Under the pieces are notes generated by a model that saw only the letters and a list, made by a program, of their open reading frames with translations, was not told the DNA's origin and made no database searches. Positions 22,673-61,285 of a DNA stretch of 64,000 nt are shown here, piece by piece. The position numbers were made by a program, and so were the translations under genes. Position 1 is the first letter of the stretch, and every line of letters starts with the position of its first letter. Where the stretch lies: contig JAJZUU010000010.1 of assembly GCA_021848325.1 (NCBI GenBank), positions 1 through 64,000 on the forward strand. The letters are read 5' to 3'. Source of the stretch: Pseudomonadota bacterium (lineage in GTDB: Bacteria; Pseudomonadota; Gammaproteobacteria; Burkholderiales; JAJZUU01).

Positions 22673-23959
22673 ATGACGGAAGTCGTGGCAACCAACGAGA
22701 CCATCCTGGTCGTAGGCGGCGGCATCAGCGGCATGACGGCGGCCTTGGAGGCCGCCGAATGCGGCAAGGATGTGGTGCTGGTAGAGAAGAACTCCCACCT
22801 GGGTGGGCGCGTGTCCATGCTCTACCGCTATTTTCCCAAGATGTGCCATCCCAGTTGCGGGTTGGAGATCAACCTGCGGCGCATCAAGGGCAACCGCCGC
22901 ATCCGCGTCCTGACCATGGCGGAGGTGACGGGGATCAGCGGCAGCGCGGGTGACTACACCGCCAGCGTCAAGATCTCGCCGCGCTTCGTCAACGAGAAAT
23001 GCACCGCCTGCGGCGCCTGCACGGACGCCGTGGAAACCGAGGTGCCCAACCCGTTCAACTACAACCTGAACAAGGTGAAGGCGGCCTACCTTCCCAGCGC
23101 CATGGCCTATCCCCAGCGCTATGTGCTGGACCCTTCCCTCGTCGGCACGGCGGAAGGGGAGAAGGCCAAGGCAGCGTGCAAATACGACGCCATTGATCTC
23201 GGGATGCAGGAAGAGACGGTTCAGTTCAAGGCCGGGGCGGTGGTGTGGGCGACCGGTTGGCAGCCGTACGATGCGGCCAAGATCCAGCCCTACGGCTACG
23301 ACCGCTTTGACAACGTGATCACCAGCGTCGAGTTCGAGCGCCTGGCGGACCCCCATGGCCCCACCGGCGGCAAGATCCAGCGCCCCTCGGACGGCAGGGA
23401 GGCCAAGAACGTCGCCTTCATCCAGTGCGCCGGCTCCCGGGACGAGAATCACCTGCGCCACTGCTCCCGCATCTGCTGTATGGCGTCCCTCAAGCAGACC
23501 AACTACGTGCGCGAGGCCTACGGGGACGAAGGCAACTCCACCGTCTATTACATCGACATCCGCGCCATCGACCGTTTCGAGGACTTCTACCAGAAGGTCA
23601 AGGCCGATCCGAACGTGGCGTTCGTGAAGTCCAAGGTGGCGAAAATCGTGGAGGACGAAAAGACCAAGGACGTCATCCTGCACGGGGTGGATACCGAGGG
23701 CTATCACCGCTACGCCAATCAGCACGACTTGGTGGTGCTGGCGGTCGGCATGGAGCCGAGCGTCAAGGGTGCGAATATCCCGGCGGAAATCGTCGCCGAT
23801 TCGAGCGGCTTTATCGAGGCCGATCCCGCCAACGGGGGGCTGTTCGGAGCGGGCTGCGCGTCCAATCCGCTGGACGTGAACCGGGCGGTGCAAAGCGCCA
23901 CCGCCAGCGCCTTGCGCGCGATTCAAGTGATTAACCGTGTAGCCAGGGTGGAGGGTTAA
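22673..23959 (+). CDS. qmoA: QmoA, HdrA-like flavoprotein of the Qmo complex
   Basis: A 428-residue FAD protein. The Rossmann motif ILVVGGGISGMTAALEAAE is at about residues 11-29. The HdrA signature MCHPSCGLEINLRRIKGN follows at about 57-74, and KCTACGACTDAVETEVPNPF at about 110-129 gives a Cys cluster. NVAFIQCAGSRDENHLRHCS and RICCMASLKQTNYVREAYG add further Cys. QmoA works with QmoB and partners to exchange electrons between APS reductase (AprAB) and quinone; in sulfur oxidisers the flow runs from sulfite/AMP oxidation to quinone. It is the first gene of a tight four-gene operon (gaps of 3, 12 and 14 bp). aprAB is not in the window. Confidence 0.93.
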   Translation: MTEVVATNETILVVGGGISGMTAALEAAECGKDVVLVEKNSHLGGRVSMLYRYFPKMCHPSCGLEINLRRIKGNRRIRVLTMAEVTGISGSAGDYTASVKISPRFVNEKCTACGACTDAVETEVPNPFNYNLNKVKAAYLPSAMAYPQRYVLDPSLVGTAEGEKAKAACKYDAIDLGMQEETVQFKAGAVVWATGWQPYDAAKIQPYGYDRFDNVITSVEFERLADPHGPTGGKIQRPSDGREAKNVAFIQCAGSRDENHLRHCSRICCMASLKQTNYVREAYGDEGNSTVYYIDIRAIDRFEDFYQKVKADPNVAFVKSKVAKIVEDEKTKDVILHGVDTEGYHRYANQHDLVVLAVGMEPSVKGANIPAEIVADSSGFIEADPANGGLFGAGCASNPLDVNRAVQSATASALRAIQVINRVARVEG

Positions 23960-23962
23960 CTT

Positions 23963-26230: not shown

Positions 26231-26242
26231 GAGGCGACCAGA

Positions 26243-26866
26243 ATGAGCGAAGCGAATACCCAAGCAGTGGAGAAATACCGCAACAACTTCCTCAAAGAGG
26301 TCGAAGAGCGGGTAGAGGAAGGCGAGTGGGTGAAGATGTGCATGCAGTGCGGGGTCTGCTCCGGTTCCTGCCCGTTCGGCCCTCACTGGGCGCATCCGCC
26401 GCAGGAGATCTTCATGATGATCCGGGCTGGCAAGCGTGACGAAGTGCTGACCTCCGACTCCATGTGGATGTGCACTTCGTGCTACAACTGCATCGTGCGC
26501 TGCCCGAGAAAGCTGCCCATCACCCACATCATGCACGGCCTGGCCAATTACGCGCACCGGCTGGGGCTGGCGCCGAAGGGCCAGCCGACCCGTGAGTTCG
26601 GCAAGATGTTCTGGAACAACCTGGTCGCAACGGGCCGCGTCAACGAATTGAAGCTGTCCCTGAGCCTGTACTTCAAGGATGGGTTTTCCCAGGGAATCAA
26701 GAACGCGATGGCCATGAAGGACGTCGGTCTCGGGATGTTGAAGGCCAAGCGCCTGAACCCGTTCGAACTGTTCTCGCCCCACGGTTGCAAGGACAGGAAG
26801 GGGATTCACGCCATGCTGAAAAAGGCGCGCGAGATCGAAGATCGCCGCAAGCATCTGACTAGCTGA
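26243..26866 (+). CDS. hdrC: HdrC-like iron-sulfur subunit of the Qmo complex
   Basis: A 207-residue protein with two 4Fe-4S sites: CMQCGVCSGSCPFGPHW (about 34-50) and CTSCYNCIVRCPRKLPI (about 77-93). This is the HdrC pattern. No membrane helices are present, unlike QmoC, which fuses HdrC-like and HdrE-like membrane parts. The ribosome site is TAGGAGGCGACCAG upstream of ATG 26243. It should pass electrons between QmoB and HdrB. Replacement of QmoC by separate HdrC and HdrB is known from Gram-positive sulfate reducers and some sulfur oxidisers, and leaves the quinone contact site unassigned. Confidence 0.9.
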   Translation: MSEANTQAVEKYRNNFLKEVEERVEEGEWVKMCMQCGVCSGSCPFGPHWAHPPQEIFMMIRAGKRDEVLTSDSMWMCTSCYNCIVRCPRKLPITHIMHGLANYAHRLGLAPKGQPTREFGKMFWNNLVATGRVNELKLSLSLYFKDGFSQGIKNAMAMKDVGLGMLKAKRLNPFELFSPHGCKDRKGIHAMLKKAREIEDRRKHLTS

Positions 26867-26880
26867 GGAGACAGGCAAAC

Positions 26881-27780
26881 ATGGCCAAGAAGGAATACGC
26901 GTTTTACCCGGGATGCTCTTCGCAAACGAAGGCATCCAGTTCCAACTATCTGGTTTCCGTCAATTCCATGTGCAAGACATTGGACATCAAGCTGACCCAG
27001 ATCCCGGACTGGAACTGTTGCGGCGCCTCCATCGGCTATGCCGAGGGCGGCGAGTTGCCCCGTCACGTCCTGAACGCCCGCAATTTCGCGCTGGCCGAGC
27101 AGCACCTGTCCGGGCAGGACGTGGTCGCCACCTGCGCCGCCTGCTGGCTCGGCGCACGCGAAACCAAGGAGCGCCTGGGCGCCAGCGCGCAACTCCTGGC
27201 CGACACCAACGAGGCGCTCAAGGAAGCCGGACTTAGCTATAAGGGCGAAGCGGAAATCCGCCACATGGTGGAGGTGCTGATCGAGGACCTGGGCTACGAG
27301 GAACTGGCCAAGCCGGTGGTGAAGCCGCTGGCGGGCCTCAAGATCGCAGGCTACGTGGGTTGCCAGACCAATCGGCCGTTCGGGATCGCGGGGGAGTCCT
27401 TCGAGAACCCCAAGTACCTGGACAAACTGATCGAGACCGTGGGGGCCGAGGCGGTTCCCTATGACCAGAAGGTGACCTGCTGCGGCGGCGCCCTGGCCTT
27501 TTCGGAACCGGAAAAGAGCCAGAAACAGATCAGGGATATCGTCGAGTCCGCCTACGACCACGGCGCCGACATGATCGTGACCCCTTGCCCCCTGTGCCAG
27601 GCCAACGTTGAAATCTACCAGGGCGAGGTCAACAAGCGCTTTGGCACCAAGTTCAACATTCCGGTGGCCTACTACAGCCAACTGTTGACCGTCGCCTACG
27701 GCGGTTCCGCCAAGGATGCGGCGCTGGATGGGCAGGTGATCCGCCCGACCAAGCTTGAGGAGTTGGCCAGCAAGAAATAG
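26881..27780 (+). CDS. hdrB: HdrB-like CCG-domain subunit of the Qmo complex
   Basis: A 299-residue protein with two CCG domains. The first spans FYPGCSSQTKASS (about 8-20), NCCGASIGYAEGGELP and CAACWLGARETKE. The second spans VGCQTNRPFGIAG, VTCCGGALAFSEPEKSQKQ and CPLCQANVEIYQG. In heterodisulfide reductase these motifs bind the noncubane cluster that handles disulfide chemistry; here they may only relay electrons. It ends the operon after a GAGGAGACAGGCAAAC ribosome site. The Cys sets are complete, so the protein looks functional. Confidence 0.9.
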   Translation: MAKKEYAFYPGCSSQTKASSSNYLVSVNSMCKTLDIKLTQIPDWNCCGASIGYAEGGELPRHVLNARNFALAEQHLSGQDVVATCAACWLGARETKERLGASAQLLADTNEALKEAGLSYKGEAEIRHMVEVLIEDLGYEELAKPVVKPLAGLKIAGYVGCQTNRPFGIAGESFENPKYLDKLIETVGAEAVPYDQKVTCCGGALAFSEPEKSQKQIRDIVESAYDHGADMIVTPCPLCQANVEIYQGEVNKRFGTKFNIPVAYYSQLLTVAYGGSAKDAALDGQVIRPTKLEELASKK

Positions 27781-27863
27781 CCGCCATGGGGCTGAAGGGC
27801 GTTGCCGCCGGCGACGTCCGCCCTTTGCGGTTTTCCGTGACCGATCCGGTAGGGGGTAGTCCC

Positions 27864-28166
27864 ATGAAAGACCCGAAAACCCTGGACGAGTACCTGGACC
27901 TGGTGCACCAGGCGGTCTATGAGGTGGACGAACTGCGTGCCTGCATAGACGACGACATGGAAGAGATGGAGAACTATCTGCCGTTCGTGGAGCAATTGGA
28001 CGCACAATTGCGCGCGTTGTTCGATGAAATGACCAGCGGCAAGTACACCTTTCCCGCCAACGCCGACCTGCCGTTCATGGCCATCGTGCAGCGTTTCGGC
28101 GTGCACATTCCCTTCAGAAAACTGCTGGAAACCATCAACCGCACTCACCGTCGAGGCTTGGCGTAG
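27864..28166 (+). CDS. Small conserved-type protein downstream of hdrB
   Basis: A 100-residue acidic, helical protein (MKDPKTLDEYLDLVHQAVYE, then VDELRACIDDDMEEMENYL, then FVEQLDAQLRALFDEMTSGK). There is no signal peptide, Cys cluster or transmembrane segment. ATG 27864 is preferred over the in-frame ATG at 27786 because AGGGGG lies 7-8 nt upstream and the extra 26 residues look random. It lies 83 bp after hdrB on the same strand, so it may be co-transcribed with the Qmo operon; whether it is a Qmo accessory is positional inference. I do not recognise the family. Confidence 0.65.
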   Translation: MKDPKTLDEYLDLVHQAVYEVDELRACIDDDMEEMENYLPFVEQLDAQLRALFDEMTSGKYTFPANADLPFMAIVQRFGVHIPFRKLLETINRTHRRGLA

Positions 28167-42150: not shown

Positions 42151-44907
42151 CTACCCTGGACCGGCCGGGTCCCGTGTCGCGCGCGACAGCCTGTGGCGCA
42201 ACAAGTCTTCGAGAGGCCCGTCGGCGAGCGGAGAACCGAGCCGGTTGCCCTGGAACAGGCGGCAACCCCGCGCCAGAAGGAATTCGTACTCTCGGGAGGT
42301 CTCCACGCCTTCGGCCATCACATCCAGTTCAAGGCTGTTCGCCATGTTCAGCAGGGCTTCGACGACCTGGGCATTGGGCGTGTCACCCGGAATGCCGGAA
42401 ACCAGAGTCTGGGCGATCTTTACCGAATCGATGGGGAGACGTTTGAGCTGCGTCAACGAGACATGGCCGGTCCCGAAGTCATCCAGGGAAAACCCGACGC
42501 CCCATTCGCGTATACGGTGCATGACGTCGGCAATGCGCCGCCCATCGCCATGCAAGGCCGCCTCCGTGATTTCGAGTACCAGGGATGCCGGCGGTGCTCC
42601 GGTTTCCTGAAGGATCTGCCGGAGTTGTTCGACAAACTCGGGCTGCGACAGCAGGCGGGGACTGATGTTTACCATCATGCGGACGTCCCCCGAGAGTTCC
42701 GCCCCCGGAACATTTCCCCGGGACAGCAGTCCCTCGCCATGCCAGGCTACCAGCTTGCGGCAGGCCGTCTTGAGCACCCAGCAGTCGATCGTCGGCGCCA
42801 GGCCCGTTTCCTCGGCGACCGGAATAAATTCTTTCGGCATGCGCAGCCGATGTCCGGGTGGTTGCCAGCGCACCAGCGCTTCCACGTCCATGATGTTGCC
42901 TTCGGCGTCGGCAATAGGCTGGTAGTGGAGCAGCAACTGGTCTCCATTGACCGCTTCCCTGAGCTGGCTATGCATGGACTGGCGCTGCTCGGTCTCGGCC
43001 TGAACCGTCTCGGAGTAAAAATAGACGGTATCGCCTCCCGTGCCCTTGGCGCGATACATGGCGCTGTCGGCAATCTGCAGCAGCCGTTCCGCATCCAGAT
43101 CGTCGGCCGGATACAAGGCGATTCCGACGCTGGCGGAAACGCTGAGGTCGTACTCGCCGATAGATACCGGTTTGCGAATTTCAGCAAGGATTTTCTGCCC
43201 CACGTTGCGTGCGCGGGTGGCGGCATCCTCCCGAGTGCCTGCCTCGGCGCCCAACAAGACCACGAATTCGTCCCCGCCAAGGCGGGCCGCCATATCATCG
43301 ATACGCAAGATATCACGCACGCGATGCGCCACGCTCGCCAGCAGCGCATCGCCTGCGGTATGGCCATGGGCGTCATTGATACGCTTGAAATGATCCAGAT
43401 CCAGAAATAGCAAGGCGCCGAAACTCGAACACCGCTGCGCATGCGCCAGGTCCTGCTCGAGCCGTGTGTGGACAAGGCGCCGGTTGGGTAATCCGGTCAG
43501 GGGATCGTAAAGTGCCTGGCGCTGAATCTTGGCCTCGAACGCCCTGCGCTCGGAGATATCCTGCCAGTGCACGACGTAATGGGTAATCTCGTTTTCGGCA
43601 TTGCGCACGGTGCTCACACTCAGACGCACCGGTAACAGACTCTCGTCCTTGCGCCGTGCCTCAATTTCACCGGACCACTTGTCGGCGCCGGGCAGCGCCT
43701 GCGGCAGGCCGGAGGAGCTCTGGAGATACTCGCCGGAATCGTCGGACTGCAAATGCAACTCGCTCAGGCAATGCCCGGTAACTTCATCGGCGGTGTAGCC
43801 AAACATGCCCATGAACGCGCGATTGACCTTGACCAGCACGCCTTCGCGGTTGGTGATGGCCAGCGGATCGGCCGTCTCGAACACCGAGGCGTGCAGCCGC
43901 AGTGCGTCCTGGGCGCGCCGCTCCAGGGTCACGTCGCGGGCCACGGCGATGGAGCCGACCGTTTCGCCCGCGTCATTGGTCAGCGTCCGGGAGTTCCAGC
44001 TCAATATCGTGTTCCGGCCGTCCTTGGTGCGGATGGTGCTTTCCAGATCAAAGGCCGCGGTGCCCCGCGCCAGGATGTCCATCGCCCGGGAAAAGATGTG
44101 GTCGCGGTAGGCCTCGTCCGGGTACAGCCATCCCCAGATATCCAGCCTGCCCTGGACCTCCTCGCGCAGGTAGCCGCTAATCCGCTCCGCCGCCTTGTTC
44201 CAGATGACGATGCGGCCTTCTTTATCAAGACTGTTGAGCCAGATATCGGCGTTGTCGATGATGCCGTCCATGTACTCGTTGAGCGCCCGGATCTGCTCGG
44301 CGGCGATGCGCTGCTCGCTGATGTCGCGCACGAACACCAAGTTCATGGCCTGCCCATCGTGGTGCGCCGTGGCGGTATGGACATGTACCGGCACGAGATG
44401 GCCATCCGCATGCTGCAGTTGGGTCTCGTAAAGCGCGGAAGAAGATAGGCTGCGGTGGGGTCCGTCCTCGTCGGAATCCCCATCCGGCTCTTGATTCGAA
44501 GACGAGTCTTGTGTTTCAGCGAGCCGCTCCACCGCCGCATAGCGATCGAAGCGCTGGCCTACCAGGTGTTGCCGCTCATAGCCCGACAACAGAGCAAGAC
44601 TGGCGTTGGCGAAAACGATCCGGCCATTCCTGATGACTGCGATACCATCACCGGCATGCTCGACCATCAGCCGATATTGCTCAAGCGCCGGTTCGTCCGG
44701 CGGCCGCCATCGCTGCACCAGGATCATGCCCAGCATAGCGCCCCCCAAGGCCGCCAGGACCACGGTCATCAGCACAACCGCAGCCGGAACAACGCCTGTC
44801 AACACAGTGGTACCTGGAATAACCGCGCTGCCCAGCCCAAGCGCAGCGAGCAACAGCAGTGCGCCGAGCGCGGCGAGCCAGCGTGATTTTGCGATCCTGG
44901 TGATCAC
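42151..44907 (-). CDS. Membrane-bound PAS-GGDEF-EAL cyclic-di-GMP enzyme
   Basis: A 918-residue protein. Two transmembrane helices (about 8-27 LAALGALLLLAALGLGSA; about 40-62 VVLMTVVLAALGGAML) are followed by three PAS units (about 75-490), a GGDEF domain (about 500-660, RLGGDEFVVLLG intact) and an EAL domain (about 680-910: DVEALVRWQPPGHR intact, LEITEAALHGD, FSLDDFGTGHVSLTQLK, DVMAEGVET). It can both make and degrade cyclic-di-GMP in principle. Start GTG 44907 is chosen because its GTGA overlaps the stop of the upstream DUF917 gene; a longer frame to 45135 would read through that gene. This overlap makes the two genes a coupled unit. Confidence 0.88.
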   Translation of the reverse strand: MITRIAKSRWLAALGALLLLAALGLGSAVIPGTTVLTGVVPAAVVLMTVVLAALGGAMLGMILVQRWRPPDEPALEQYRLMVEHAGDGIAVIRNGRIVFANASLALLSGYERQHLVGQRFDRYAAVERLAETQDSSSNQEPDGDSDEDGPHRSLSSSALYETQLQHADGHLVPVHVHTATAHHDGQAMNLVFVRDISEQRIAAEQIRALNEYMDGIIDNADIWLNSLDKEGRIVIWNKAAERISGYLREEVQGRLDIWGWLYPDEAYRDHIFSRAMDILARGTAAFDLESTIRTKDGRNTILSWNSRTLTNDAGETVGSIAVARDVTLERRAQDALRLHASVFETADPLAITNREGVLVKVNRAFMGMFGYTADEVTGHCLSELHLQSDDSGEYLQSSSGLPQALPGADKWSGEIEARRKDESLLPVRLSVSTVRNAENEITHYVVHWQDISERRAFEAKIQRQALYDPLTGLPNRRLVHTRLEQDLAHAQRCSSFGALLFLDLDHFKRINDAHGHTAGDALLASVAHRVRDILRIDDMAARLGGDEFVVLLGAEAGTREDAATRARNVGQKILAEIRKPVSIGEYDLSVSASVGIALYPADDLDAERLLQIADSAMYRAKGTGGDTVYFYSETVQAETEQRQSMHSQLREAVNGDQLLLHYQPIADAEGNIMDVEALVRWQPPGHRLRMPKEFIPVAEETGLAPTIDCWVLKTACRKLVAWHGEGLLSRGNVPGAELSGDVRMMVNISPRLLSQPEFVEQLRQILQETGAPPASLVLEITEAALHGDGRRIADVMHRIREWGVGFSLDDFGTGHVSLTQLKRLPIDSVKIAQTLVSGIPGDTPNAQVVEALLNMANSLELDVMAEGVETSREYEFLLARGCRLFQGNRLGSPLADGPLEDLLRHRLSRATRDPAGPG

Positions 44908-46148
44908 GGCCGGTCCCGGGACCCCGTCGCGGGCCAGGGAACGTAAGCTCCCCCATAGCCCAGGGTGCGATTCACCGCCGCAAAGTTGTTGATGATGACG
45001 GGATTGCGCATTTCGGCAGCCGCCGCCACCGCCACGACGAACATCTCCAGCCGCATATCCGGCGCCTGCTGATAAAGACGGTTGAGATCGCTGTTGTCGA
45101 TGGCCAGGGGCGCATCGTCTGCCGTCACATAACAAATCGAGTCCGGGCCGATGACACAGGGCGTGTCCTGGTCGCTACGGATGGCAAACACGTTCTCGTT
45201 CTCATTGTAAATCGTCAACTGGGCGCCGGAGCCCGCCGCGTCATCCAGCACGATACGACCGACATCCACGCCGCCTTCCGCCTGCACCACCTCGCGCACC
45301 CGCCCATGCCAGATCACCGCGCTCGCCCGCCCGGCATTTCGGATGCAGGCGACTACCCGGTGGGCCCGTTCTGCGCCGCGACACGCCTCGAGTGCGCGCC
45401 CGATCTCCAGGGCCAGGCTCAGGGTCCCTCCCACTGGCGGCGTGCGCCGGAGCAACTCGGAAGCCGTGAGCGGGTACATGGACATTCCGGCGATTCCACC
45501 GAACGGCGCGGACATGACCAGCCCTATGATGGCCTCCTCGGCGGCTGTCTCATCGTTGACCCGGATCACGCCCGCGTCATAGCCCGGAATGCCCTCCCCG
45601 GAGGCAGACGGATGCGCCCCCTCGCTGGCGACCACCGCGGGATGCGGCGCAATGGCGTTGGCGGCAAACACGGTCAGGCTCAGTGTCGGGATCGACCGTC
45701 CGGCACCGTCGGCGTCGACGACGGCCAGCCCGACTGCTCGTCCGCGGCTGAGCTGGGCGGCAACAGTGAGCGGGGAGGCGGTATTAATGGCCCCCACTTC
45801 GATGGGTAGCACCCAGGAAAAACCCTGCGGCGGAAAATGGCGAAAACGCGGGTCCGCCCCCCGCATCATGTGCAGTTCCGCCTCCATTGCGCGAAAAGCG
45901 TTGGCCGGCGCATGGGGATTGGTGGTTTTGAACAGGGCATCCGGCGCGCCCATGTTGGCCGAGGTCGCCAGCCAGCCATCGGGCTGCTGCGCAAGCTCGT
46001 CGAGACCGACGACAGTTACCCGGTCATCTGCCCCGATCCCCTGATCGATGATCCGGCATGCGACCCGGAATGACCCGCCCCCGCCGGAGGCCAGCACGCA
46101 AGCCCCTGCCACCAGGGTTTTCATTTCATTTTTTTCGATGGTAAACAT
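44904..46148 (-). CDS. DUF917 (hydantoinase/oxoprolinase-associated) family protein
   Basis: A 414-residue protein. VAGACVLASGGGGSFRVACR (about 13-32) is the diagnostic N-terminal Gly loop, followed by VVGLDELAQQPDGWLATSAN, then MGAPDALF, PIEVGAINTASPLTVAAQLS, VVDADGAGRSIPTLSLTVF, NDETAAEEAIIGLVMSAPFG, then GIAGMSMYPLTASELL. DUF917 proteins are often near hydantoinases or peptide permeases and bind small acidic ligands by structure; enzymatic function is not established. Here it stands without hydantoinase genes and overlaps the start of a GGDEF-EAL gene by 4 nt. The start ATG 46148 is preceded by GAAGGGAGACCG. Confidence 0.85.
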   Translation of the reverse strand: MFTIEKNEMKTLVAGACVLASGGGGSFRVACRIIDQGIGADDRVTVVGLDELAQQPDGWLATSANMGAPDALFKTTNPHAPANAFRAMEAELHMMRGADPRFRHFPPQGFSWVLPIEVGAINTASPLTVAAQLSRGRAVGLAVVDADGAGRSIPTLSLTVFAANAIAPHPAVVASEGAHPSASGEGIPGYDAGVIRVNDETAAEEAIIGLVMSAPFGGIAGMSMYPLTASELLRRTPPVGGTLSLALEIGRALEACRGAERAHRVVACIRNAGRASAVIWHGRVREVVQAEGGVDVGRIVLDDAAGSGAQLTIYNENENVFAIRSDQDTPCVIGPDSICYVTADDAPLAIDNSDLNRLYQQAPDMRLEMFVVAVAAAAEMRNPVIINNFAAVNRTLGYGGAYVPWPATGSRDRP

Positions 46149-46333
46149 CGGTCTCCCTTCTTCTCGGAGCGGGCCCCGGCAACCGCTTTTAGCAGCTACT
46201 CGCGTTCGCCAGTCAGACAAATCGGCAGGATGCCCATCAAGCTTTAGATAATTTCTAAATCATGATTCAAAACCGGACTAAGCGGGGCCCCGCCGGCACG
46301 GCGCGGATCAGGCGTTCGGACAGACGGCCCGGC

Positions 46334-49300
46334 TCATTTCAGCGCGGGATGGTCGGCACTGGGCCGATCGATGTGGTACCCCTGCACGAAACCGATGCCC
46401 ATATCGCGCACCATCTCGAGCGTGGCCTGATCCTCCACGAATTCGGCGATTGTGACCTTGTGCAACCCGCGCGCGATCTCCGCCATGGCGCGGACAAAGG
46501 CTTGGTTGTCCGGGTTGTTGGGCAGGTCGCTGATGAACAGGCCGTCGATCTTGAGCATCTCCACCGCCAGATGCTTGAGGTAGGCGAACGTCGAGAACCC
46601 GCTGCCGAAGTCGTCCAGGGCCACGCGACATCCGCTGCGCTGCAGGGTTTCGATGAAGTGCTGCGCGTCCTGCACGTCGGATACGGCGGCAGTCTCGGTC
46701 AGTTCCACGATGAGCCGTCGCGGGTCGACGCCCTGTTCTTCGAGTTGTGCGCGAATGAATTGCGGCAACGAGGGTTCGTCCACGGATCGCCCGGACACGT
46801 TGACCGCCAGAGCCGGCAGTCGCGAATGCGCTTTGAGCAGTTCAATGCTGCGCCGGATCACCCAGCGGTCGATTTCGACGATCTGGCCGCTTTTTTCGGC
46901 GTGCGGAATGAACAGATTCGGCATGATCAGCCGTTCGGGCGCACTGCGGTCACGCATGCGGATCAGCGCCTCCAGATGGCTCAAGGCGCCGTCGGCTGCG
47001 CGATAGATGCCCTGGAAGTGCAGTTCCAGGCCGTTTTCCTCCAGTGCCTGGCCGATGCGGTGATTCCAGGTGAGCCGGGTGGCCATCGCTCCCGACAAAT
47101 CGCGCGTCGGATCGTACACAAACCAGGTATTCTTGCCCTGGCGCTTGGCCTGGTACATGGCGGTATCGGCATGTGCGATCAGGTCTTCCGCCGTTTCACC
47201 ATGATCGGGAAACACCGCCACGCCGATGCTGGCCGTGAGCCGCAGATTGCTGCCGCGGAAACGCAGAGGAATCGCGGCGACCGTACTCACGATGCGCTTA
47301 GGCAGCGCATTCAGGTCATCTTCCGGCTGCAACTGGGTCAATACCGCGAATTCGTCGCCGCCCAGCCGGGCGAAGATCTCGCTTGAGCGCACCAGGTGGG
47401 CAATCTCGCCCGCCATGCGCACCAGCACCCTGTCCCCGGCACCGTGGCCGAACGTGTCGTTGATGTACTTGAATTCGTCCAGATCGAAATAGAGCAGGGC
47501 AAAGCGTGTGCCCATGCGGGACGAGGTGGCTATCACTTGCTCCAGCCGTTCCTGGAAGCGGTGACGGTTATATAGGCCGGTGAGCGGGTCGCGCTGGGCC
47601 AGGTAGAGCAACTGCGCCGCGGTCTGGCGCTCGTGGGTGACATCTGCGTAAATCCACAGCCGGCCGATGATCCGCCCATCGCCGGCGCTCACCGGATAGG
47701 AAATCTGGGTCAGTATCCGCCCGTCGAACAGATCAATCTCGAAGCGCTCGCTGATTTCATGGGTATCAAGCACCCTGAGCACATATCTCGAGGCATGATC
47801 GGGCCGCGCGAACCGGTGGGTGGAATGCTGCAATACCTCGGCAACAGGCTGGCCGGTCAGGCTGACCGTCTCCGGGATCGCCCACATGCCCTTGAAAGCG
47901 GGATTGACGTACTGGATGCGCGAATCACGGTCTTCGAACAGGATCCCGATGCTCATCGCCGAGAGCAGCGCCGCCATCCGCCCCTGTTCGTGCTGGGCGA
48001 GCAGCCTGAGATCCCGTTCCCGCGCCTCTGCCTCCCGGATCGCTATTTCGGTGCGTAGCCGATCAACCGCCAGGCCCAGGTCGCCGGCCAGCTTCTCCAG
48101 CAGCACCACCTCCTCGTTGCCGAAGGCGTGCGGCGTCTTTGCATAGACGCTGAGACCGCCCACCACCTGTCCCTGAAACCGCAACGGAATCGCCGCGGAG
48201 GAGCGGTAACCGAATTCGCGTGCCCGCTCGCGCCACAGCCCGAACAGCACATTGGTTTCGGTATCGTCGTTGATGGCGGTCTGCCCATTGCGAATGGCCG
48301 TACCGGTAGGGCCCTGCCCTTCGGGAGTGCCGTCGTAGCGGATATCCAGATTCTCCAGGTAGCCGTGGGCGAAACCCGCTTGATAGGCGACCCGCACTCG
48401 ACCTGTCTCGGGTATGGCAAATCCGATCCATGCCATACTGAATCCGCCCTGCTCCACGAGAGTGTTGCAGATAGCCGCGAACAGTTGCGTCTCGTCCTTT
48501 GCGGCAAGGAGCGCAGGACTAATCGCTCCGAGCGTGTTGAGTAGCCGATTCAATCGTAGCGCGCGCCGGGTCGTCTTCTCGTGCTCGGCGATCTGCTCCC
48601 GCAGTTGGCAGTTGGCCGTGTCCAACTTGGCCGTGCGTGCTGCAACCCGTTGTTCCAGCAGTTCACCCTGAACGCGCAATTCGGCCGCCACCGCCCGTTC
48701 GCGTCGCAAGGACAACGCCGCACATTCTCGCCCCAACCGCGTTACCGCCACTGCGGCGGCAAAAGCACAGAGTGCGCGCAGCAATTGGACCGGCAATCCG
48801 GTGGCTTCAAGGAAGCGCCGGGTGGTGGGTAGCCAAGCAGGGAAATCCGGCACGCTCTCGATGATGCCTCCTGCCAGAACCGCATAGATCATGAACGCAA
48901 CAGCCGCGACATATGCGGGCACCCTGGATGGCCGGTTCGCACTGTCCACGGCAGTCTGATCGAGCGTCGGGAGAAAAATCAGTCCGGTGATCCATGCGCC
49001 TGGAAGACCTAACAAATAGCGCCCCCCGGCACTCAAACCCGCGCTGCCATAGGCCGCCATAAGCCAGACCAGCAGGGCCGCAATGGGCACGTAGCTCCAT
49101 GGGGAGGTGAGCCGCACCCGGCGAATGGCGTTTACGCCCATCCGCTCTGCGGCACCGCGACGCGCAAACTCGAACAGGGGCAAATAGGAGAACACCAGCA
49201 GGAGCGCGCCCGCTGCTTCGGCCGTGGCGCTGGCGTTGCCCATGGAGATCCGCCAAGCGCCGAAGAATTCGTTGGTGCCGTGCAGCAGGGCGAACGCGCT

Positions 49301-49447
49301 TAGCAATCCGAAACGACGCGAAACGGGCAGGCTATCCGGATTGTTCGGCTGAAGGTAGAGGGCGACACCGAGCACCACGAACGAAACGGCATAGAAGATA
49401 TAGATCTCAACGATGTGCGCCGCCCAGAACGATGCGGATGTCGCCAT
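46334..49447 (-). CDS. Membrane GAF-PAS-GGDEF-EAL cyclic-di-GMP enzyme
   Basis: A 1037-residue protein. The N-terminus carries six to eight hydrophobic helices (about 5-260; AHIVEIYIFYAVSFVVLGVA, VPIAALLVWLMAAYGSAGL, YVAAVAFMIYAVLAGGI), a MASE-like membrane sensor. A coiled segment (about 265-310) leads to a GAF domain (about 330-480, FSMAWIGFAIPETGRVRVAY, ETNVLFGLWRERAREFGYR). A PAS domain follows (about 510-620), then GGDEF (about 640-800, FARLGGDEFAVLTQL intact) and EAL (about 815-1037, LEALIRMRDRSAPE intact, VALDDFGSGFSTFAYLKHLA, EMLKIDGLFISDL). The start ATG 49447 gives MATSASFWAAHI; an upstream frame to 49564 lacks membrane-protein character. Confidence 0.88.
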   Translation of the reverse strand: MATSASFWAAHIVEIYIFYAVSFVVLGVALYLQPNNPDSLPVSRRFGLLSAFALLHGTNEFFGAWRISMGNASATAEAAGALLLVFSYLPLFEFARRGAAERMGVNAIRRVRLTSPWSYVPIAALLVWLMAAYGSAGLSAGGRYLLGLPGAWITGLIFLPTLDQTAVDSANRPSRVPAYVAAVAFMIYAVLAGGIIESVPDFPAWLPTTRRFLEATGLPVQLLRALCAFAAAVAVTRLGRECAALSLRRERAVAAELRVQGELLEQRVAARTAKLDTANCQLREQIAEHEKTTRRALRLNRLLNTLGAISPALLAAKDETQLFAAICNTLVEQGGFSMAWIGFAIPETGRVRVAYQAGFAHGYLENLDIRYDGTPEGQGPTGTAIRNGQTAINDDTETNVLFGLWRERAREFGYRSSAAIPLRFQGQVVGGLSVYAKTPHAFGNEEVVLLEKLAGDLGLAVDRLRTEIAIREAEARERDLRLLAQHEQGRMAALLSAMSIGILFEDRDSRIQYVNPAFKGMWAIPETVSLTGQPVAEVLQHSTHRFARPDHASRYVLRVLDTHEISERFEIDLFDGRILTQISYPVSAGDGRIIGRLWIYADVTHERQTAAQLLYLAQRDPLTGLYNRHRFQERLEQVIATSSRMGTRFALLYFDLDEFKYINDTFGHGAGDRVLVRMAGEIAHLVRSSEIFARLGGDEFAVLTQLQPEDDLNALPKRIVSTVAAIPLRFRGSNLRLTASIGVAVFPDHGETAEDLIAHADTAMYQAKRQGKNTWFVYDPTRDLSGAMATRLTWNHRIGQALEENGLELHFQGIYRAADGALSHLEALIRMRDRSAPERLIMPNLFIPHAEKSGQIVEIDRWVIRRSIELLKAHSRLPALAVNVSGRSVDEPSLPQFIRAQLEEQGVDPRRLIVELTETAAVSDVQDAQHFIETLQRSGCRVALDDFGSGFSTFAYLKHLAVEMLKIDGLFISDLPNNPDNQAFVRAMAEIARGLHKVTIAEFVEDQATLEMVRDMGIGFVQGYHIDRPSADHPALK

Positions 49448-55095: not shown

Positions 55096-56553
55096 CCTCG
55101 AACAATCCCTCAAGGAAAACCGCCCCCGCGCCCTCATCCAAATGGCCACGGGTTCGGGCAAGACCTTCACCGCCATCTCGTTCATTTACCGGCTCATCAA
55201 GTTCACCGGTGCCCGGCGGGTGCTGTTCCTGGTGGACCGGGGCAACCTCGCCGACCAGAGCCTGAAGGAATTCCAGCAATATGTCTCGCCCTACAACAAC
55301 TTCAAGTTCAGCGAGGAATACATCGTCCAGCGCCTGACGGGCAATATCCTCGACACCACCGCACGGGTGTGCATCTGCACCATCCAGCGCCTGTACTTCA
55401 TGCTCAAGGGGCGAGATCTGGCGGAGGAGGACGAGGACCTGATGGCCACCGGCTTCGACGGCATCTACAAGAAAGTGCCGCCCGTCGAATACAACCCGGC
55501 CATCCCCATCGAGACCTTCGACATCATCGTCACCGACGAGGCCCACCGCTCCATCTATAACCTCTGGGCCCAGGTGCTGGAGTACTTCGACGCCTACCTC
55601 ATCGGCCTCACCGCCACGCCCGGCAAGCAGACCTTCGGCTTCTTCCACCAGAACCTGGTGATGGAATACAACCACGAAATGGCTGTGGCCGACGGCGTCA
55701 AGACCGCCATCACCGAGGGCGGCTCCAAGGTCGAAGCCGGCTATTACGTGGAAAAGCAGGAACGCGACACCCGCAAGACCCGCTGGGAAGAACTGGACGA
55801 CGACTTCGCCTACGACCCCAACCAGCTCGACCGCGACGTCGTCACCCCCGACCAGATCCGCACCATCGTGCGCACCTTCCGCGACAAACTGTTCAGCGAA
55901 ATCTTTCGTGATCGAACCGAAGTGCCCAAGACCCTCATCTTCGCCAAGGACGACAACCACGCCGAAAACATCGTCGAAATCCTGCGCGAGGAATTCGGCA
56001 AGGGCAACGAATTCGCCCAGAAGATCACCTACAGAACGACGGGTGCCACGCCCAAGGAACTCATTTCCGCCTTCCGCAACAGCTACCACCCGCGCATCGC
56101 CGTCACCGTCGACATGATCGCCACCGGCACCGACATCAAGCCGGAGGAAATCGTCTTTTTCATGCGCGCCGTCAAATCGCGCGGCTTCTTCGAGCAGATG
56201 AAAGGCCGCGGCGTGCGCGTCATCAAGCCTGACGAGCTCAAGGCCGTCACGCCCGATGCCAAGGCCAAGGACCACTTCGTCATCATCGATGCCGTCGGCG
56301 TGTGCGAGCAGGACAAAACCGACGCCCGCCCCATGGAGAAAAAACCCAGCGTCAGCTTCGAACGCCTGCTGCAAGCCGTCGCCTTCGGCAACACCGAAGA
56401 CGACGTCATCACCAGCATCGCCGGCCGCCTGGCCAGAATGGAACACCGCATCAGCGCCGAAGACGACGCCAGGATTCGCATCGCCAGCGGCGGCCTCGGC
56501 CTAAAAGACCTCGCCCACCAACTGGTTCAGTCACTCTCGCCCGACCTGGATTT

Positions 56554-56601
56554 ACTCCCCTCTCCCTCGGGGAGAGGGGGCGGGGGTGAGGGCGCCATCC
56601 A
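56554..56601 (+). repeat. Palindromic REP-like unit inside hsdR, copy 1
   Basis: CCCCTCTCCCTCGGGGAGAG plus GGGGCGGGGGTGAGGGCG: a 9-bp GC stem followed by a G-rich tail, inserted in frame and translated as LLPSPSGRGGGGEGA, which has no counterpart in HsdR relatives. Confidence 0.7.
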
Positions 56602-57118
56602 GGGTGAGGGGGCCGCGCAACATGCGCGAATCGTCGCCTCCAAACCCCTCTGCGACCCCGCCCTGCGCCAGCTCATCCTCGACATCAAAGCCAAAAACGA
56701 ACTCACCATCGACCACGTCAGCCAAGACCAAGCCATCGAAGCCGGCTTCAGCCAAGCCGCCCGCGACCGCGCCAAAGGTCTGGTGCAATCCTTCGAGCAA
56801 TTCATCGCCGACCACAAAGACGAAATCACCGCCCTGCAAATCCTCTGCAAGCCCTACAAACAGCGCCTCACCTTCGAGGCGGTGCAGGAACTCGCCGACG
56901 CCATCGAAAAACCGCCCTACCTGTGGAACGAATCCCAGCTCTGGCAGGCCTACGCCGCGCTGGAAGCCAGCAAGGTCAAAGGCGCCAGCGGCCGCCGCAT
57001 CCTCACCGACCTGGTTTCCCTGGTCCGTTTCGCCATCCACCAGGACAACGAACTCGTTCCCTTCCCCGAACGCGTCAACGCCAACTTCAAGGCCTGACTG
57101 GCAGGGCAGGAATCTTCA

Positions 57119-57157
57119 CTCCCCTCGCCCTCGGGGAGAGGGGCTGGGGGTGAGGGC
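57119..57157 (+). repeat. Palindromic REP-like unit inside hsdR, copy 2
   Basis: CTCCCCTCGCCCTCGGGGAG followed by AGGGGCTGGGGGTGAGGGC: the same family as the copy at 56554, also in frame (LPSPSGRGAGGEG), 22 bp after the nonsense codon. Confidence 0.7.
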
Positions 57158-57327
57158 AGATTCACCCCCGGACAAATGAAATGGCTGGAAATGATCCGCG
57201 ACCATATCGCCGCCAACCTCGGCATAGCACCGGACGACTTCGAATACGCCCCCTTCGCCCAGGAAGGCGGATTGGGCAAGGTGTATCAGCTCTTCGGCGA
57301 TGAACTGAACGCCCTCATTGAACAAGA

Positions 57328-57336
57328 ATAAAGAAT
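57328..57336. repeat. Target-site duplication, left copy
   Basis: ATAAAGAAT, repeated exactly at 58659-58667 on the other side of the IS4 element. It includes the TAA stop of hsdR. Confidence 0.92.
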
Positions 57337-58658
57337 CAGTAGTGTCCGGTTAAAACGCGAACAGATTCAGTTGGTTGCCGTTGCTGGCCTGATCGAATTT
57401 GTATTCGCTGCCCGCAAAGGCCTGCTGGATGGGCATTTTCTCGAACAGGGTGAGCGAAAATATCTGTAACAAAGTGTAGAGCGAAGCGTCCAGATTGAGA
57501 CGCTTCTTGACGATAGCGACGAGGACATAGACCGACACGGCAATCCAGATTTGTGACTTCACCGCATTCTCGGAATTGCCGTAGAACTTCTTGATACGCA
57601 GATGCTGCTTGATCCATTTGAAAAACAACTCCACCTGCCAACGGCTCTTGTAGAGCGCCCAGATGGTGGCTGCCGACAACACGAAGTTGTTGGTAAGGAA
57701 AACCAATGTGTTGCCGGTCTCGGCATCCTTGTAACGGATGCGGCGCAGATGTTCGGGATAGTCCTTGCGGCTGGTGGTGCCGGTGAGTGCAATGGTCTGA
57801 TCGCAGATGATGCCTGTGCTGCGATCCACCGTAGCCGGATAGACGCGCCGAAGCCGGGTGTTCGACTTGGTACGAGTAACGAAGAAGGCTTGTGCCAGAT
57901 GCAGCGTGTAAAGCCGCGCGAAGTCCAGATAGCCCCGATCCATGACGTAGATCGCGCCGGCCTCCAGCACCAGCACATCGAGGACATTGACGTCGCCCAG
58001 CTTGCCGTCGGAGATGTGGATGAAGCTGGGAATGTTGCCGCGCAAGTCCAGCAACGTATGCATCTTCACTGCGGACTTGGTGGTGCGAAACGGTGCCCAA
58101 GGAAAGAGCGACAGGCACAAGTCGATGGTTGTCGAATCCAGCGCGTAAGCCGTGTTCTCCAACGCAATGCCGAAGCCGTCGCCCGCATAGAGCTTGCGTG
58201 CCTGCTCGATCAGACGCTGGGCGAATTCCGCGTGGATACGCCAGTCTCGCGCCTCGTTGGCATCGGCCAGCGTCGAGCGTTTGATCTCCTGCCGCAAGCC
58301 CATGTGATAGAGCTTGGCCGACTGCGCCGAGAGGCAAACTTCGATGTCGCGCAGGCTCTCGCGGTATGTCAGTTGCGCGAAGGCCATCACGCGGAATTGA
58401 TCGGCGCATGTCATGGACTTTACGTAGCGATCGCCGTCGTGGCGATCGACGATGCGATGGAAGGTCTTCCAGGGGAGGAAGTCCATGAGTTGGGCGAACA
58501 GCGTCTTGCCGATGTTCATGGCGGTCTCCGGAAGAAAAACCGGAAGACTGCCAGAACCGCCTGTCGCCGTTCAAATCGGAGACACCCTTCATCGCTTGGA
58601 ATCCAGCGTCAGTCATGGCTTTCAGCGATTCACTCCTTCATTTAACCGGACACTACTG
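57337..58658 (-). mobile_element. IS4-type insertion sequence, intact, 1322 bp
   Basis: Ends CAGTAGTGTCCGGTTAAA and TTTAACCGGACACTACTG are perfect 18-bp inverted repeats. The 9-bp duplication ATAAAGAAT flanks it (57328-57336 and 58659-58667). It encodes one transposase on the minus strand. Perfect ends and a perfect target duplication mean a recent insertion, at the very end of the hsdR frame (the duplicated target includes its TAA). Confidence 0.93.
57350..58519 (-). CDS. IS4-family transposase
   Basis: A 389-residue DDE transposase. The N-terminal domain MNIGKTLFAQLMDFLPWKTF is the DUF4372 type. Catalytic residues lie in ENTAYALDSTTIDLCLSLFP (first Asp, about 120), GAIYVMDRGYLDFARLYTLH (second Asp, about 197) and YKSRWQVELFFKWIKQHLRI (YREK-like Glu, about 317-336). 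C-terminal QQAFAGSEYKFDQASNGNQL, then NLFAF, ends the element. No frameshift is seen, so it is probably active. It reads opposite to the restriction-modification genes. Confidence 0.92.
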   Translation of the reverse strand: MNIGKTLFAQLMDFLPWKTFHRIVDRHDGDRYVKSMTCADQFRVMAFAQLTYRESLRDIEVCLSAQSAKLYHMGLRQEIKRSTLADANEARDWRIHAEFAQRLIEQARKLYAGDGFGIALENTAYALDSTTIDLCLSLFPWAPFRTTKSAVKMHTLLDLRGNIPSFIHISDGKLGDVNVLDVLVLEAGAIYVMDRGYLDFARLYTLHLAQAFFVTRTKSNTRLRRVYPATVDRSTGIICDQTIALTGTTSRKDYPEHLRRIRYKDAETGNTLVFLTNNFVLSAATIWALYKSRWQVELFFKWIKQHLRIKKFYGNSENAVKSQIWIAVSVYVLVAIVKKRLNLDASLYTLLQIFSLTLFEKMPIQQAFAGSEYKFDQASNGNQLNLFAF

Positions 58659-58667
58659 ATAAAGAAT
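58659..58667. repeat. Target-site duplication, right copy
   Basis: ATAAAGAAT, a perfect match to the left copy, giving the 9-bp duplication of the IS4 insertion. Confidence 0.92.
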
Positions 58668-58715
58668 GGTGATTTGTGAGCGCTTGTAGCGAGTTCCTGT
58701 CGTTGAATGTTGATC

Positions 58716-58732
58716 GTTCCCTAAAAGGGTGA
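58716..58732 (+). promoter_or_regulatory. Operator half-matching site O1 of the MNT-HEPN pair
   Basis: GTTCCCTAAAAGGGTGA is an imperfect copy of the O2 palindrome, centred 21 bp (two turns) upstream of it. Confidence 0.45.
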
Positions 58733-58736
58733 TATC

Positions 58737-58753
58737 GTTCCCAATATGGGAAC
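58737..58753 (+). promoter_or_regulatory. Operator O2 overlapping the MNT start codon
   Basis: GTTCCCAATATGGGAAC, a perfect 17-bp palindrome whose centre contains the ATG of the antitoxin gene. The encoded protein begins with a winged-HTH domain, so autorepression at this site is the simplest reading. Confidence 0.6.
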
Positions 58754-59372
58754 TATTGCTGCAGCCACTGAAACCGGACTGGGCGATGTCTTGTTTACCA
58801 AGACCCAGCGCCAGGTGCTGGGCCTTTTGTTCGGCAATCCGGAGCGAAGCTTCTACGCCAAGGAGATTGTCCGTCTTGCCGGTGTTGGTATCGGATCGGT
58901 GCAACGCGAACTGGAGAAACTTAGCGTGGTTGGTTTGCTGACCGTGACCCGAATAGGCAACCAAAAGCACTATCAGGCGAATCGTCAGGCGCCGATTTTC
59001 GAGGAGCTGCGCGGCATTGTTCTGAAGACCTTCGGCCTGGCTGACGTGTTGCGCGAAGTGCTGGCTACTTTTACGGACAGGATCAAGGTGGCTTTTATCT
59101 ATGGCTCGGTGGCAAAAGAGACGGACACGGCGAGCAGCGATATCGATCTGATGATAGTCGCCCCGGATCTTTCCTATTCGGAGGTGGTCGCCTTGCTTGC
59201 CGAAACGGAAACACGCCTCGGCAGAGCAGTTAACCCGACGCTCTATAAACCGGCGGACTTTGCGCGAAAGTTGGCTGAGGACAATGCCTTCTTGAGCAAG
59301 GTTGTGGATCAGCCGAAGATTTTTTTGATTGGCGCGGAAGATGACATCCCAAAACCTGGAAAATCTGGTTAA
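58746..59372 (+). CDS. Winged-HTH + MNT nucleotidyltransferase (antitoxin-type)
   Basis: A 208-residue protein. Residues 12-90 are an ArsR-like winged helix (LFTKTQRQVLGLLFGNPERS, then FYAKEIVRLAGVGIGSVQRE, LEKLSVVGLLTVTRIGNQKH). Residues 100-200 are a minimal nucleotidyltransferase: FIYGSVAKETDTASSDIDLM (about 117-136) has the GS and DxD catalytic elements. MNT proteins of HEPN/MNT pairs (MntA type) AMPylate and neutralise the HEPN toxin; the added winged helix suggests it also represses the operon. It overlaps the HEPN gene by 32 nt. It is located between hsdR and hsdM, where type I loci often carry accessory genes. Confidence 0.87.
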   Translation: MGTIAAATETGLGDVLFTKTQRQVLGLLFGNPERSFYAKEIVRLAGVGIGSVQRELEKLSVVGLLTVTRIGNQKHYQANRQAPIFEELRGIVLKTFGLADVLREVLATFTDRIKVAFIYGSVAKETDTASSDIDLMIVAPDLSYSEVVALLAETETRLGRAVNPTLYKPADFARKLAEDNAFLSKVVDQPKIFLIGAEDDIPKPGKSG

Positions 59373-59742
59373 GACCGGCCACCTGAAACGAGAGCCCGGA
59401 GACCCGAAGGAGTTTGCTGGCCTCGTGCGGTCCGCCCGGGTGCGCTTGGCCGATGCGCACAACAGCACGCTTTCTATGGAGAGCAGGTTCGATTTGGCTT
59501 ACAACGCCGCCCATGCGCTAGCCTTGGCGGCATTGCGCTGGCAGGGTTATCGATCGGACAAGCGTTACACCGTATTCCAATGCGTTCCACATACCCTCGG
59601 CCTGGGGCCGGAAGTGTGGCGCGTACTGACGCTGTGCCATGATCGACGCAATCTGGCCGAATATGAAGGCGACCTCGATATCGACGAACAATTGGTGAAT
59701 GATCTGTTGCAGGTGGCAGGGGCATTGATGAAAAAAAATTGA
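59341..59742 (+). CDS. HEPN-domain protein (toxin-type partner)
   Basis: A 133-residue four-helix HEPN protein. LENLVKTGHLKREPGDPKEF (about 5-24) leads to LVRSARVRLADAHNSTLSME, SRFDLAYNAAHALALAALRW and LCHDRRNLAEYEGDLDIDEQ (about 99-118). The RNase motif in HEPN toxins is R-x4-6-H; here the region reads RRNLAEYEG with Tyr where His is expected, so RNase activity is doubtful or uses another residue. ATG 59341 (MTSQNLENLV) overlaps the MNT gene, showing co-translation. An ATG at 59329 would add MARK and is less likely. It ends 18 bp before hsdM. Confidence 0.82.
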   Translation: MTSQNLENLVKTGHLKREPGDPKEFAGLVRSARVRLADAHNSTLSMESRFDLAYNAAHALALAALRWQGYRSDKRYTVFQCVPHTLGLGPEVWRVLTLCHDRRNLAEYEGDLDIDEQLVNDLLQVAGALMKKN

Positions 59743-59760
59743 AACACTGGGGCCGCTGTC

Positions 59761-61285
59761 ATGAACACCGCAACCATCGTCCAAAAACTCTGGAACTACT
59801 GCAACGTCCTGCGCGACGACGGCATGAGCTACGGCGACTATGTCGAACAGCTCACCTATCTGCTGTTCCTCGAGATGGCCGACGAGCGCAGCCGGCCGCC
59901 CTACAACCAGAACAGCCCGGTGCCCGCCGGCTATGACTGGCCGAGCATGGTGAAGAAGGACGGCGACGAACTGTTCGACCACTACCGCCACACGCTGGAG
60001 CAGTTGGGCAGCAAGAAGGGCTTGCTGGGTCTGATCTTCAACAAGTCGCAGAACAAGTTCCAGGACCCGGCCAAGCTGCGGCGGCTGATCGCGGACCTGA
60101 TCGACAAGGAAACCTGGGTATCGATGAGCGCCGACGTGAAGGGCGACGCCTACGAGGGCCTGCTGGAGAAGAACGCCCAGGATACCAAGTCCGGCGCGGG
60201 GCAGTACTTCACGCCGCGCCCGCTGATCCAGGCGATTGTGGATGCCATGGCGCCCAAACCCAATGAAACCCATCTGCGACCCGGCCTGCGGCACCGGCGG
60301 CTTTCTGCTGGCGGCGCATGATTATGTGGTGAAGCACAACCCCAACATGACGACAGCGGAGAAAAAGAAACTCCGAGGGGAAAGCTTCAAGGGCTGGGAG
60401 CTGGTGCAGGCCACCGCCCGGCTGTGCGCCATGAATATGCTGCTGCACGGCATCGGCAGCCAGGAGTTCGAGCCGATTGCGGTGTCGGATTCACTCGCCG
60501 CCGACCCCGGCGAGCGCTTCGACGTGGTGCTGACCAATCCGCCCTTCGGCAAGAAGAGCAGCACCACCATCGTCGGCGAGGAAGGCAAGGTCAGCAAGGA
60601 GCGCGACATCGTCGAGCGCGACGACTTCTGGGCCACCACCTCGAACAAGCAGTTCAACTTCGTTCAGCACGTGAAAACCCTGCTCAAGCAGAACGGCCGA
60701 GCCGCGCTGGTGGTGCCGGATAACGTGCTGTTCGAGGGTGGCGCGGGCGAAACCATCCGTCGCAAGCTGCTGCATGAATGCGACGTCCATACCCTGCTCC
60801 GCCTGCCCACCGGCCTGTTCTACGCCCAGGGCGTCAAGGCGAACGTGCTGTTCTTCGACAAGAAGCCCGCCTCCGAAACCCCGTGGCCCCGGAAGCTGTG
60901 GATCTACGACCTGCGCACCAACATACACTTTACGCTCAAGACCAATCCACTGAAGCGGGAGGATCTGGATGAGTTTGTGAAGTGCTACCACCCGGAAAAC
61001 CAGCATGACCGGAAGGCGACGTGGTCGCAAGATCCCTCGCATTCGCTCGGGATGACACCGGAGGGCCGCTGGCGCGCCTATGACTACGAGGAACTCGCCA
61101 ACCGCGACAAAGCCAGCCTGGATATTTTCTGGCTCAGGGACGAGTCGCTGTCGGATTCCGACAACCTGCCTGCGCCGGAGGTGATTGCTGCGGAAATTGT
61201 GGAAGACCTGGAAGCAGCGCTGGAACAGTTTCGGGAGATTCTGGGGGACCTGGGGCCGGGCGTGGTAGAGGTTTCCGATACGTGA
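59761..61285 (+). pseudogene. hsdM: Type I DNA methyltransferase HsdM, frameshifted
   Basis: HsdM adds N6-methyladenine in type I systems. The first frame (59761 to about 60265) has the N-terminal domain MNTATIVQKLWNYCNVLRDD, then YVEQLTYLLFLEMADERSRP, and AGQYFTPRPLIQAIVDAMAP. A one-base insertion near 60262 (AAACCCAATGAAACC) shifts the reading frame. The second frame (about 60262-61285) continues KPICDPACGTGGFLLAAHDY (motif I), RFDVVLTNPPFGKKSSTTIV (NPPF), ALVVPDNVLFEGGAGETIRR and LRLPTGLFYAQGVKANVLFF. A palindromic repeat inserts DPSHSLGMT in frame near 61028-61056. All methyltransferase motifs survive, so a single reversion would restore the protein. No hsdS is present. Confidence 0.9.
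61028..61056 (+). repeat. Palindromic repeat inside hsdM
   Basis: ATCCCTCGCATTCGCTCGGG followed by ATGAC is the common 'ATCCCTCGC..GCTCGGGATGAC' palindrome found scattered in many bacterial genomes, here inserted in frame (WSQ-DPSHSLGMT-PEGRWR) between otherwise contiguous HsdM residues. Confidence 0.65.

Follow-up and report, generated by a model that had tools for sequence, protein, structure and literature searches.

A gene for a DUF917 protein (now the S-Me-THD-like family of Pfam) and a gene for a membrane PAS-PAS-PAS-GGDEF-EAL protein are joined on the minus strand of the window, the whole stretch of 64,000 nucleotides analysed here. The DUF917 reading frame (44904..46148, 414 aa) runs from an ATG at 46148 to a TGA at 44904; the AGGGAGA at 46152..46160, on the 5′ side of this ATG, is a probable ribosome-binding site. 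The partner gene (42151..44907, 918 aa) starts with a GTG at 44907, and the stop codon of the first gene and the start codon of the second overlap in the GTGA at 44904..44907, the junction reading ...CCGTGATC... on the minus strand. The coupled pair of the original prediction is thus borne out by this overlap and by the Pfam domains of both proteins. Gene calls were made with a simple purpose-made caller, for which small errors of start site are likely.

Upstream of DUF917 on the same strand lies a second GGDEF-EAL gene (GAF-PAS-GGDEF-EAL, 46334..49447), whose end is separated from DUF917 downstream by 185 bp, so the DUF917 of the window is flanked by c-di-GMP genes on both sides. This second gene is outside the conserved pair described below, having no counterpart upstream of the DUF917 of Mangrovitalea sediminis. 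The host genome contains a single DUF917 copy and 22 GGDEF matches. A profile search of the whole 3.0 Mb genome gave no hydantoinase_A above the cut-off, consistent with the earlier remark that no amidohydrolase is nearby; with a single DUF917 and no such enzyme, the presence of DUF917 in this host is not explained by a hydantoinase pathway.

Elsewhere in the window, a heterodisulfide reductase/Qmo-like cluster at 22673-28166 on the plus strand, recognised by eye, suggests sulfur metabolism of the host. Type I restriction-modification-like genes occupy 55142-61285, with a transposase-like gene (57350-58519) between the HsdR-like (55142-57097) and HsdM-like (60263-61285) genes.

Predicted structure of the DUF917 protein

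The DUF917 protein is related to metabolic enzymes that open rings. Both S-Me-THD-like domains are found in the window protein, PF06032 with E=3e-23 and PF20906 with E=1e-20 (83.1 and 74.4 bits against a Pfam cut-off of 27), and neither a transmembrane helix nor a signal peptide is evident. The AF2 model, calculated from a 56-row alignment, has a pLDDT of 94. The sole solved protein matched by the model is PDB 2o3i (E=9e-29, TM 0.78-0.87), that is CV_3147 of Chromobacterium violaceum from structural genomics, which also matches in sequence (E=4e-36, 28% identity) and is itself a long form (see below) by length and profile. Our literature search found no published function for 2o3i/CV_3147.

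Residues E117, N122, D147, R151, N317, E318 and D336 are conserved in the short forms of the family and largely in the long ones, and all of them are present in the window protein. A pocket function is therefore probably retained. Neither His nor Cys occurs among the conserved columns of the short or the long clade. Membership of the thiohydantoin desulfurases was considered and rejected, the match to NF058529 being partial (E=2e-12) with 47.2 bits against an equivalog cut-off of 440. A search of the open-access literature found no papers on thiohydantoin desulfurase; DUF917 family proteins have been proposed to be hydantoinases (PMC11055893).

The GGDEF-EAL partner and the orthologous pair of Mangrovitalea

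In the partner, Pfam finds GGDEF (E=6e-45), EAL (E=2e-63) and three PAS stretches, and two transmembrane helices are predicted at about residues 12-30 and 35-53. The motifs GGDEF, RxxD five residues ahead of GGDEF, EALVRW, DDFGTG and AEGVE are intact, and the protein thus carries the whole motif set of a hybrid diguanylate cyclase/EAL phosphodiesterase (GGDEF, RxxD, EAL, DDFG, EGVE), with RxxD read from the printed motif. The nearest relatives of its GGDEF domain are unrelated GGDEFs, not the type-A partners introduced below.

A scan of named genomes identified in Mangrovitalea sediminis (locus L063) a DUF917 69% identical to that of the window over its full length. Its TAG ends at 9233, which is the first base of the GTG of a PAS3-GGDEF-EAL gene, a 1-nt overlap. 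Between the two pairs, the best conserved partner segment is PAS2 (residues 201-335, 43903..44307 on the minus strand) at 72% identity, followed by GGDEF at 66%, PAS3 at 58%, EAL at 45% and PAS1 at 39%. The rest of the 17-kb Mangrovitalea locus has only general GGDEF similarity to the window, so that what the two loci share is the DUF917/GGDEF-EAL pair, which may have been transferred in one piece. Since the EAL motif is AKGVE in Mangrovitalea and AEGVE in the window, it may be the cyclase that varies less of the two outputs of the window-type pair.

These two are the known members of the window lineage. Searches of its order, class and phylum with the window DUF917 gave distant relatives only (best about 36%), with no DUF917 of the window type in the other searched genomes of the same order. 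Plasmid records held distant DUF917s only (best about 30%), and viral contigs held no relative.

Two clades of DUF917 with different neighbours

The gene-neighbourhood survey proposed with the original prediction covered 97 loci and the window, chosen independently of their neighbours, which were then labelled. In the tree of DUF917, two sides split at 100*, with 23 short-type rows (median length 361 aa) and 45 long-type rows (median 394 aa). Among the 142 neighbour slots of the short forms, 35 hold HyuA and none a signalling gene. For the long forms, GGDEF fills 48 of 125 slots, compared with a GGDEF/EAL background of 18 of 620 genes at the same loci (Fisher p=7e-27, kinship ignored). Type A is over-represented in these counts because the loci were gathered with a type-A-rich alignment. 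Earlier searches with the window DUF917 alone, which are free of this bias, gave GGDEF neighbours for 9 of 11 near-full-length matches. A GGDEF gene adjoins 31 of the 45 non-redundant long forms; the pairing is therefore recurrent. No HyuA-type gene adjoins a long form (0/125 slots), and none exceeds the cut-off in the host. The earlier description of DUF917 as normally a partner of hydantoinase holds for the short clade only.

The GGDEF-linked long forms fall into three deep lineages. In type A (27 rows), DUF917 is followed by PAS-GGDEF or PAS-GGDEF-EAL with a median gap of 10 bp; the window type has 2 rows; and in the third type, represented by L045 and L117 and also by L101 and L165, the GGDEF gene is divergently transcribed. 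If independent, three such lineages would arise by chance with a probability of about 2e-4 (about 6% each, for two slots at 2.9%). An AU test did not reject the joining of all GGDEF-partnered lineages in one clade (p-AU 0.67), and the claim of three independent recruitments of GGDEF partners was dropped for this reason. Between them, the Mangrovitalea ortholog pair and some 45 further loci, spread over three deep lineages, dispose of the objection, raised beforehand, that the adjacency might be unique to this strain.

Most long forms that have no GGDEF neighbour belong to compact operons whose other genes encode AAA16-TPR kinases, nucleotide cyclases or regulators. DUF917 follows its partner there on the same strand, mostly with gaps of -4 to 42 bp. 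The partner is a Ser/Thr kinase-AAA16-TPR gene in L067, L070 and L085, a class III cyclase-AAA16 gene in L069 and L072, a sigma-54 activator in L065, an HTH-AAA16-TPR gene in L112 and an AAA16 or TPR gene in L071 and L128. In L064 a kinase-AAA16 frame is directly upstream of DUF917, and in L055:1-4699 (genome G492) a long DUF917 is located between two zinc-ribbon nucleotide-cyclase-type genes of the same strand. An Asp/Glu/hydantoin racemase is found beside DUF917 in L065, L066, L068 and L112; none was seen at the GGDEF-paired loci. Only 2 of the 45 long forms have no signalling gene at hand, L066, beside its racemase, and L113 from Pedobacter.

Several of these surroundings have features of their own. 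A convergent gene beginning SYLSLPRVHFMG...PTTNNNNY, with no Pfam match, recurs in L067:9121-11118, L071:3420-5357 and L085:9084-11072; the loci concerned come from Acidobacteria, Myxococcota and Bacteroidota, and their DUF917 is partnered with a kinase, cyclase or TPR gene. We take its product to resemble VioB/RebD-type proteins; in L072:9115-11234 a PF12902 ferritin-like gene stands in its place. In Chloroflexota (L121, L127, L130, L131, L133, L135, L138, L140 and L141), as many as four or five DUF917 genes in tandem follow a HyuA-like gene and, by eye, adjoin a sulfatase-like gene.

DUF917 and PAS as the conserved module

Through a comparison of 37 type-A (beta/gamma-type) pairs, it was found that DUF917 and the first PAS domain of the partner are each 65% identical and that their pairwise identities correlate with r=0.84, a correlation owed in part to common ancestry. 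For the GGDEF domain the identity is 49% and r=0.55. Where the outputs of two pairs differ (GGDEF versus GGDEF-EAL), DUF917 keeps 64% and PAS 62% identity and the GGDEF domain only 35%, from which it follows that the output was swapped while DUF917 and PAS stayed. The window type resembles type A in this respect, PAS2 (72%) and DUF917 (69%) being its best conserved parts. Judged by sequence conservation, then, the conserved module is DUF917 plus PAS, and it is tied to signalling as a whole and not just to c-di-GMP.

In the samples from the order and the class, all 8 genomes with a type-A DUF917 also carry the PAS-A partner. The PAS-A domain occurs without DUF917 in 6 of its 14 carrier genomes and is thus independent of DUF917; the idea of PAS-A as an obligate partner was dropped. 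In L046:9952-13447 (genome G159), a PAS-GGDEF-EAL partner is apparently broken by two transposase-like frames, and the DUF917 upstream is intact.

Proposed function and alternative interpretations

What could a protein of this family do beside a GGDEF-EAL enzyme? The original prediction was that DUF917 supplies a metabolite signal to c-di-GMP turnover. The conserved ortholog pair and the roughly 45 recurring loci make the supply of a signal plausible; the restriction to c-di-GMP does not stand, given the kinases, cyclases and regulators beside other long forms and a PAS domain as the conserved element. By analogy with known sensor-partner systems, we lean, by a little over an even chance, to the interpretation that long-form DUF917 is an input protein of the cytosol, which binds or processes a ligand and acts on the PAS region of its partner. 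With the pocket-type residues of the family, it would bind or turn over a small metabolite. This may be a five-membered nitrogen ring, hydantoin-like or of a related kind, or the product of opening such a ring; a hydantoin-like ligand is no more than suggested. The state of DUF917 would then be passed, presumably by contact and in this direction, to the GGDEF-EAL protein translated along with it, at the PAS region of that protein in the cytosol, and this input would alter c-di-GMP turnover. The DUF917 of the window is probably a sensor, so far unrecognised, that feeds several signalling pathways.

An alternative interpretation might be that DUF917 is an active enzyme, a hydantoinase or desulfurase in type, and that PAS binds its substrate or product in soluble form, the two proteins making no contact. 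The conserved polar residues kept in the window protein, the naming of the family after enzymes by Pfam and NCBIfam together with the hydantoinase proposal, and the racemase neighbours at some long-form loci all fit this possibility. The score of 47 against 440 bits for NF058529 does not, nor does the lack of HyuA beside any long form and, over the cut-off, in the host genome, and the stop/start overlap suggests a matched production for which a catalyst has no need. We regard it as rather unlikely.

The flow could also be reversed, with the signalling enzyme regulating DUF917 as its effector, for example if DUF917 is a metabolic enzyme that the GGDEF protein turns on or off. It is not hard to read the constancy of DUF917 beside widely varying partners in this way, and in the AAA16 operons the kinase or cyclase gene does precede DUF917. 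Diguanylate cyclases, Ser/Thr kinases, nucleotide cyclases and transcription activators would, however, each require a separate control of DUF917, whereas a shared input is simpler, and we consider regulation in this direction improbable.

Still more doubtful is co-transcription alone, in which DUF917 would be a scavenging enzyme in operons with regulatory genes to which it has no functional link. The abundance of GGDEF genes, 22 matches in this host, and the occurrence of PAS-A without DUF917 are in its favour, but the pairing recurs across many families while the short clade has no signalling neighbour in 142 slots, the gaps are about 10 bp, and DUF917 and PAS are conserved jointly. A chance adjacency in a single genome, to which a lineage of two members absent from the other searched genomes of its order might point, is scarcely credible beside the overlapping junction of the Mangrovitalea pair and the GGDEF genes next to each of three deep DUF917 lineages.

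Extended from the window pair, the input interpretation would make the whole long clade a new sensor class: stand-alone proteins that detect metabolites, have their origin in an enzyme fold of the hydantoin type and plug into signalling by c-di-GMP, cyclic nucleotides, Ser/Thr kinases and AAA16-TPR (STAND-like) proteins in Pseudomonadota, Acidobacteriota, Myxococcota, Bacteroidota and SAR324. We put this forward tentatively, at somewhat less than an even chance. If true, signalling systems that are otherwise unrelated, those of kinases and nucleotide cyclases included, would have DUF917 as a sensory part in common.

Comparison with known systems

To our knowledge, the signal of most diguanylate cyclases and phosphodiesterases is not known. 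A recurrent, coupled DUF917 partner with a solved fold (2o3i) and pocket-type residues offers a direct handle on sensing by PAS-GGDEF proteins. No paper joining DUF917 with GGDEF was found in the open-access literature.

Stand-alone H-NOX (HNOB) sensors act as partner proteins of a diguanylate cyclase, DGC-PDE or histidine kinase, examples being linked to Dinoroseobacter Dgc1, Legionella Lpg1057 and Shewanella woodyi SwDGC (PMC8846402, PMC8738867). DUF917 likewise is a separate sensor-type gene beside variable outputs that include GGDEF-EAL, with the family itself constant. Unlike H-NOX, it comes from another family, has a fold matching 2o3i only, and has a putative ligand and a putative contact with its partner; no match to the heme-binding HNOB is present among the Pfam matches of the window protein, so H-NOX is an analogy and not a membership. 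The H-NOX review (PMC8846402) mentions neither DUF917 nor hydantoin.

The closer comparison is with the short DUF917/S-Me-THD proteins linked to HyuA, which have the same two domains, PF06032 and PF20906, and the same conserved polar residues. The window clade differs from them in being about 30 aa longer, in standing apart in the tree (the split at 100*) and in never lying beside HyuA, as the short forms differ in never adjoining signalling genes. DUF917 thus divides into a metabolic and a signalling clade, a division of consequence for annotation, in which both are now named after desulfurases.
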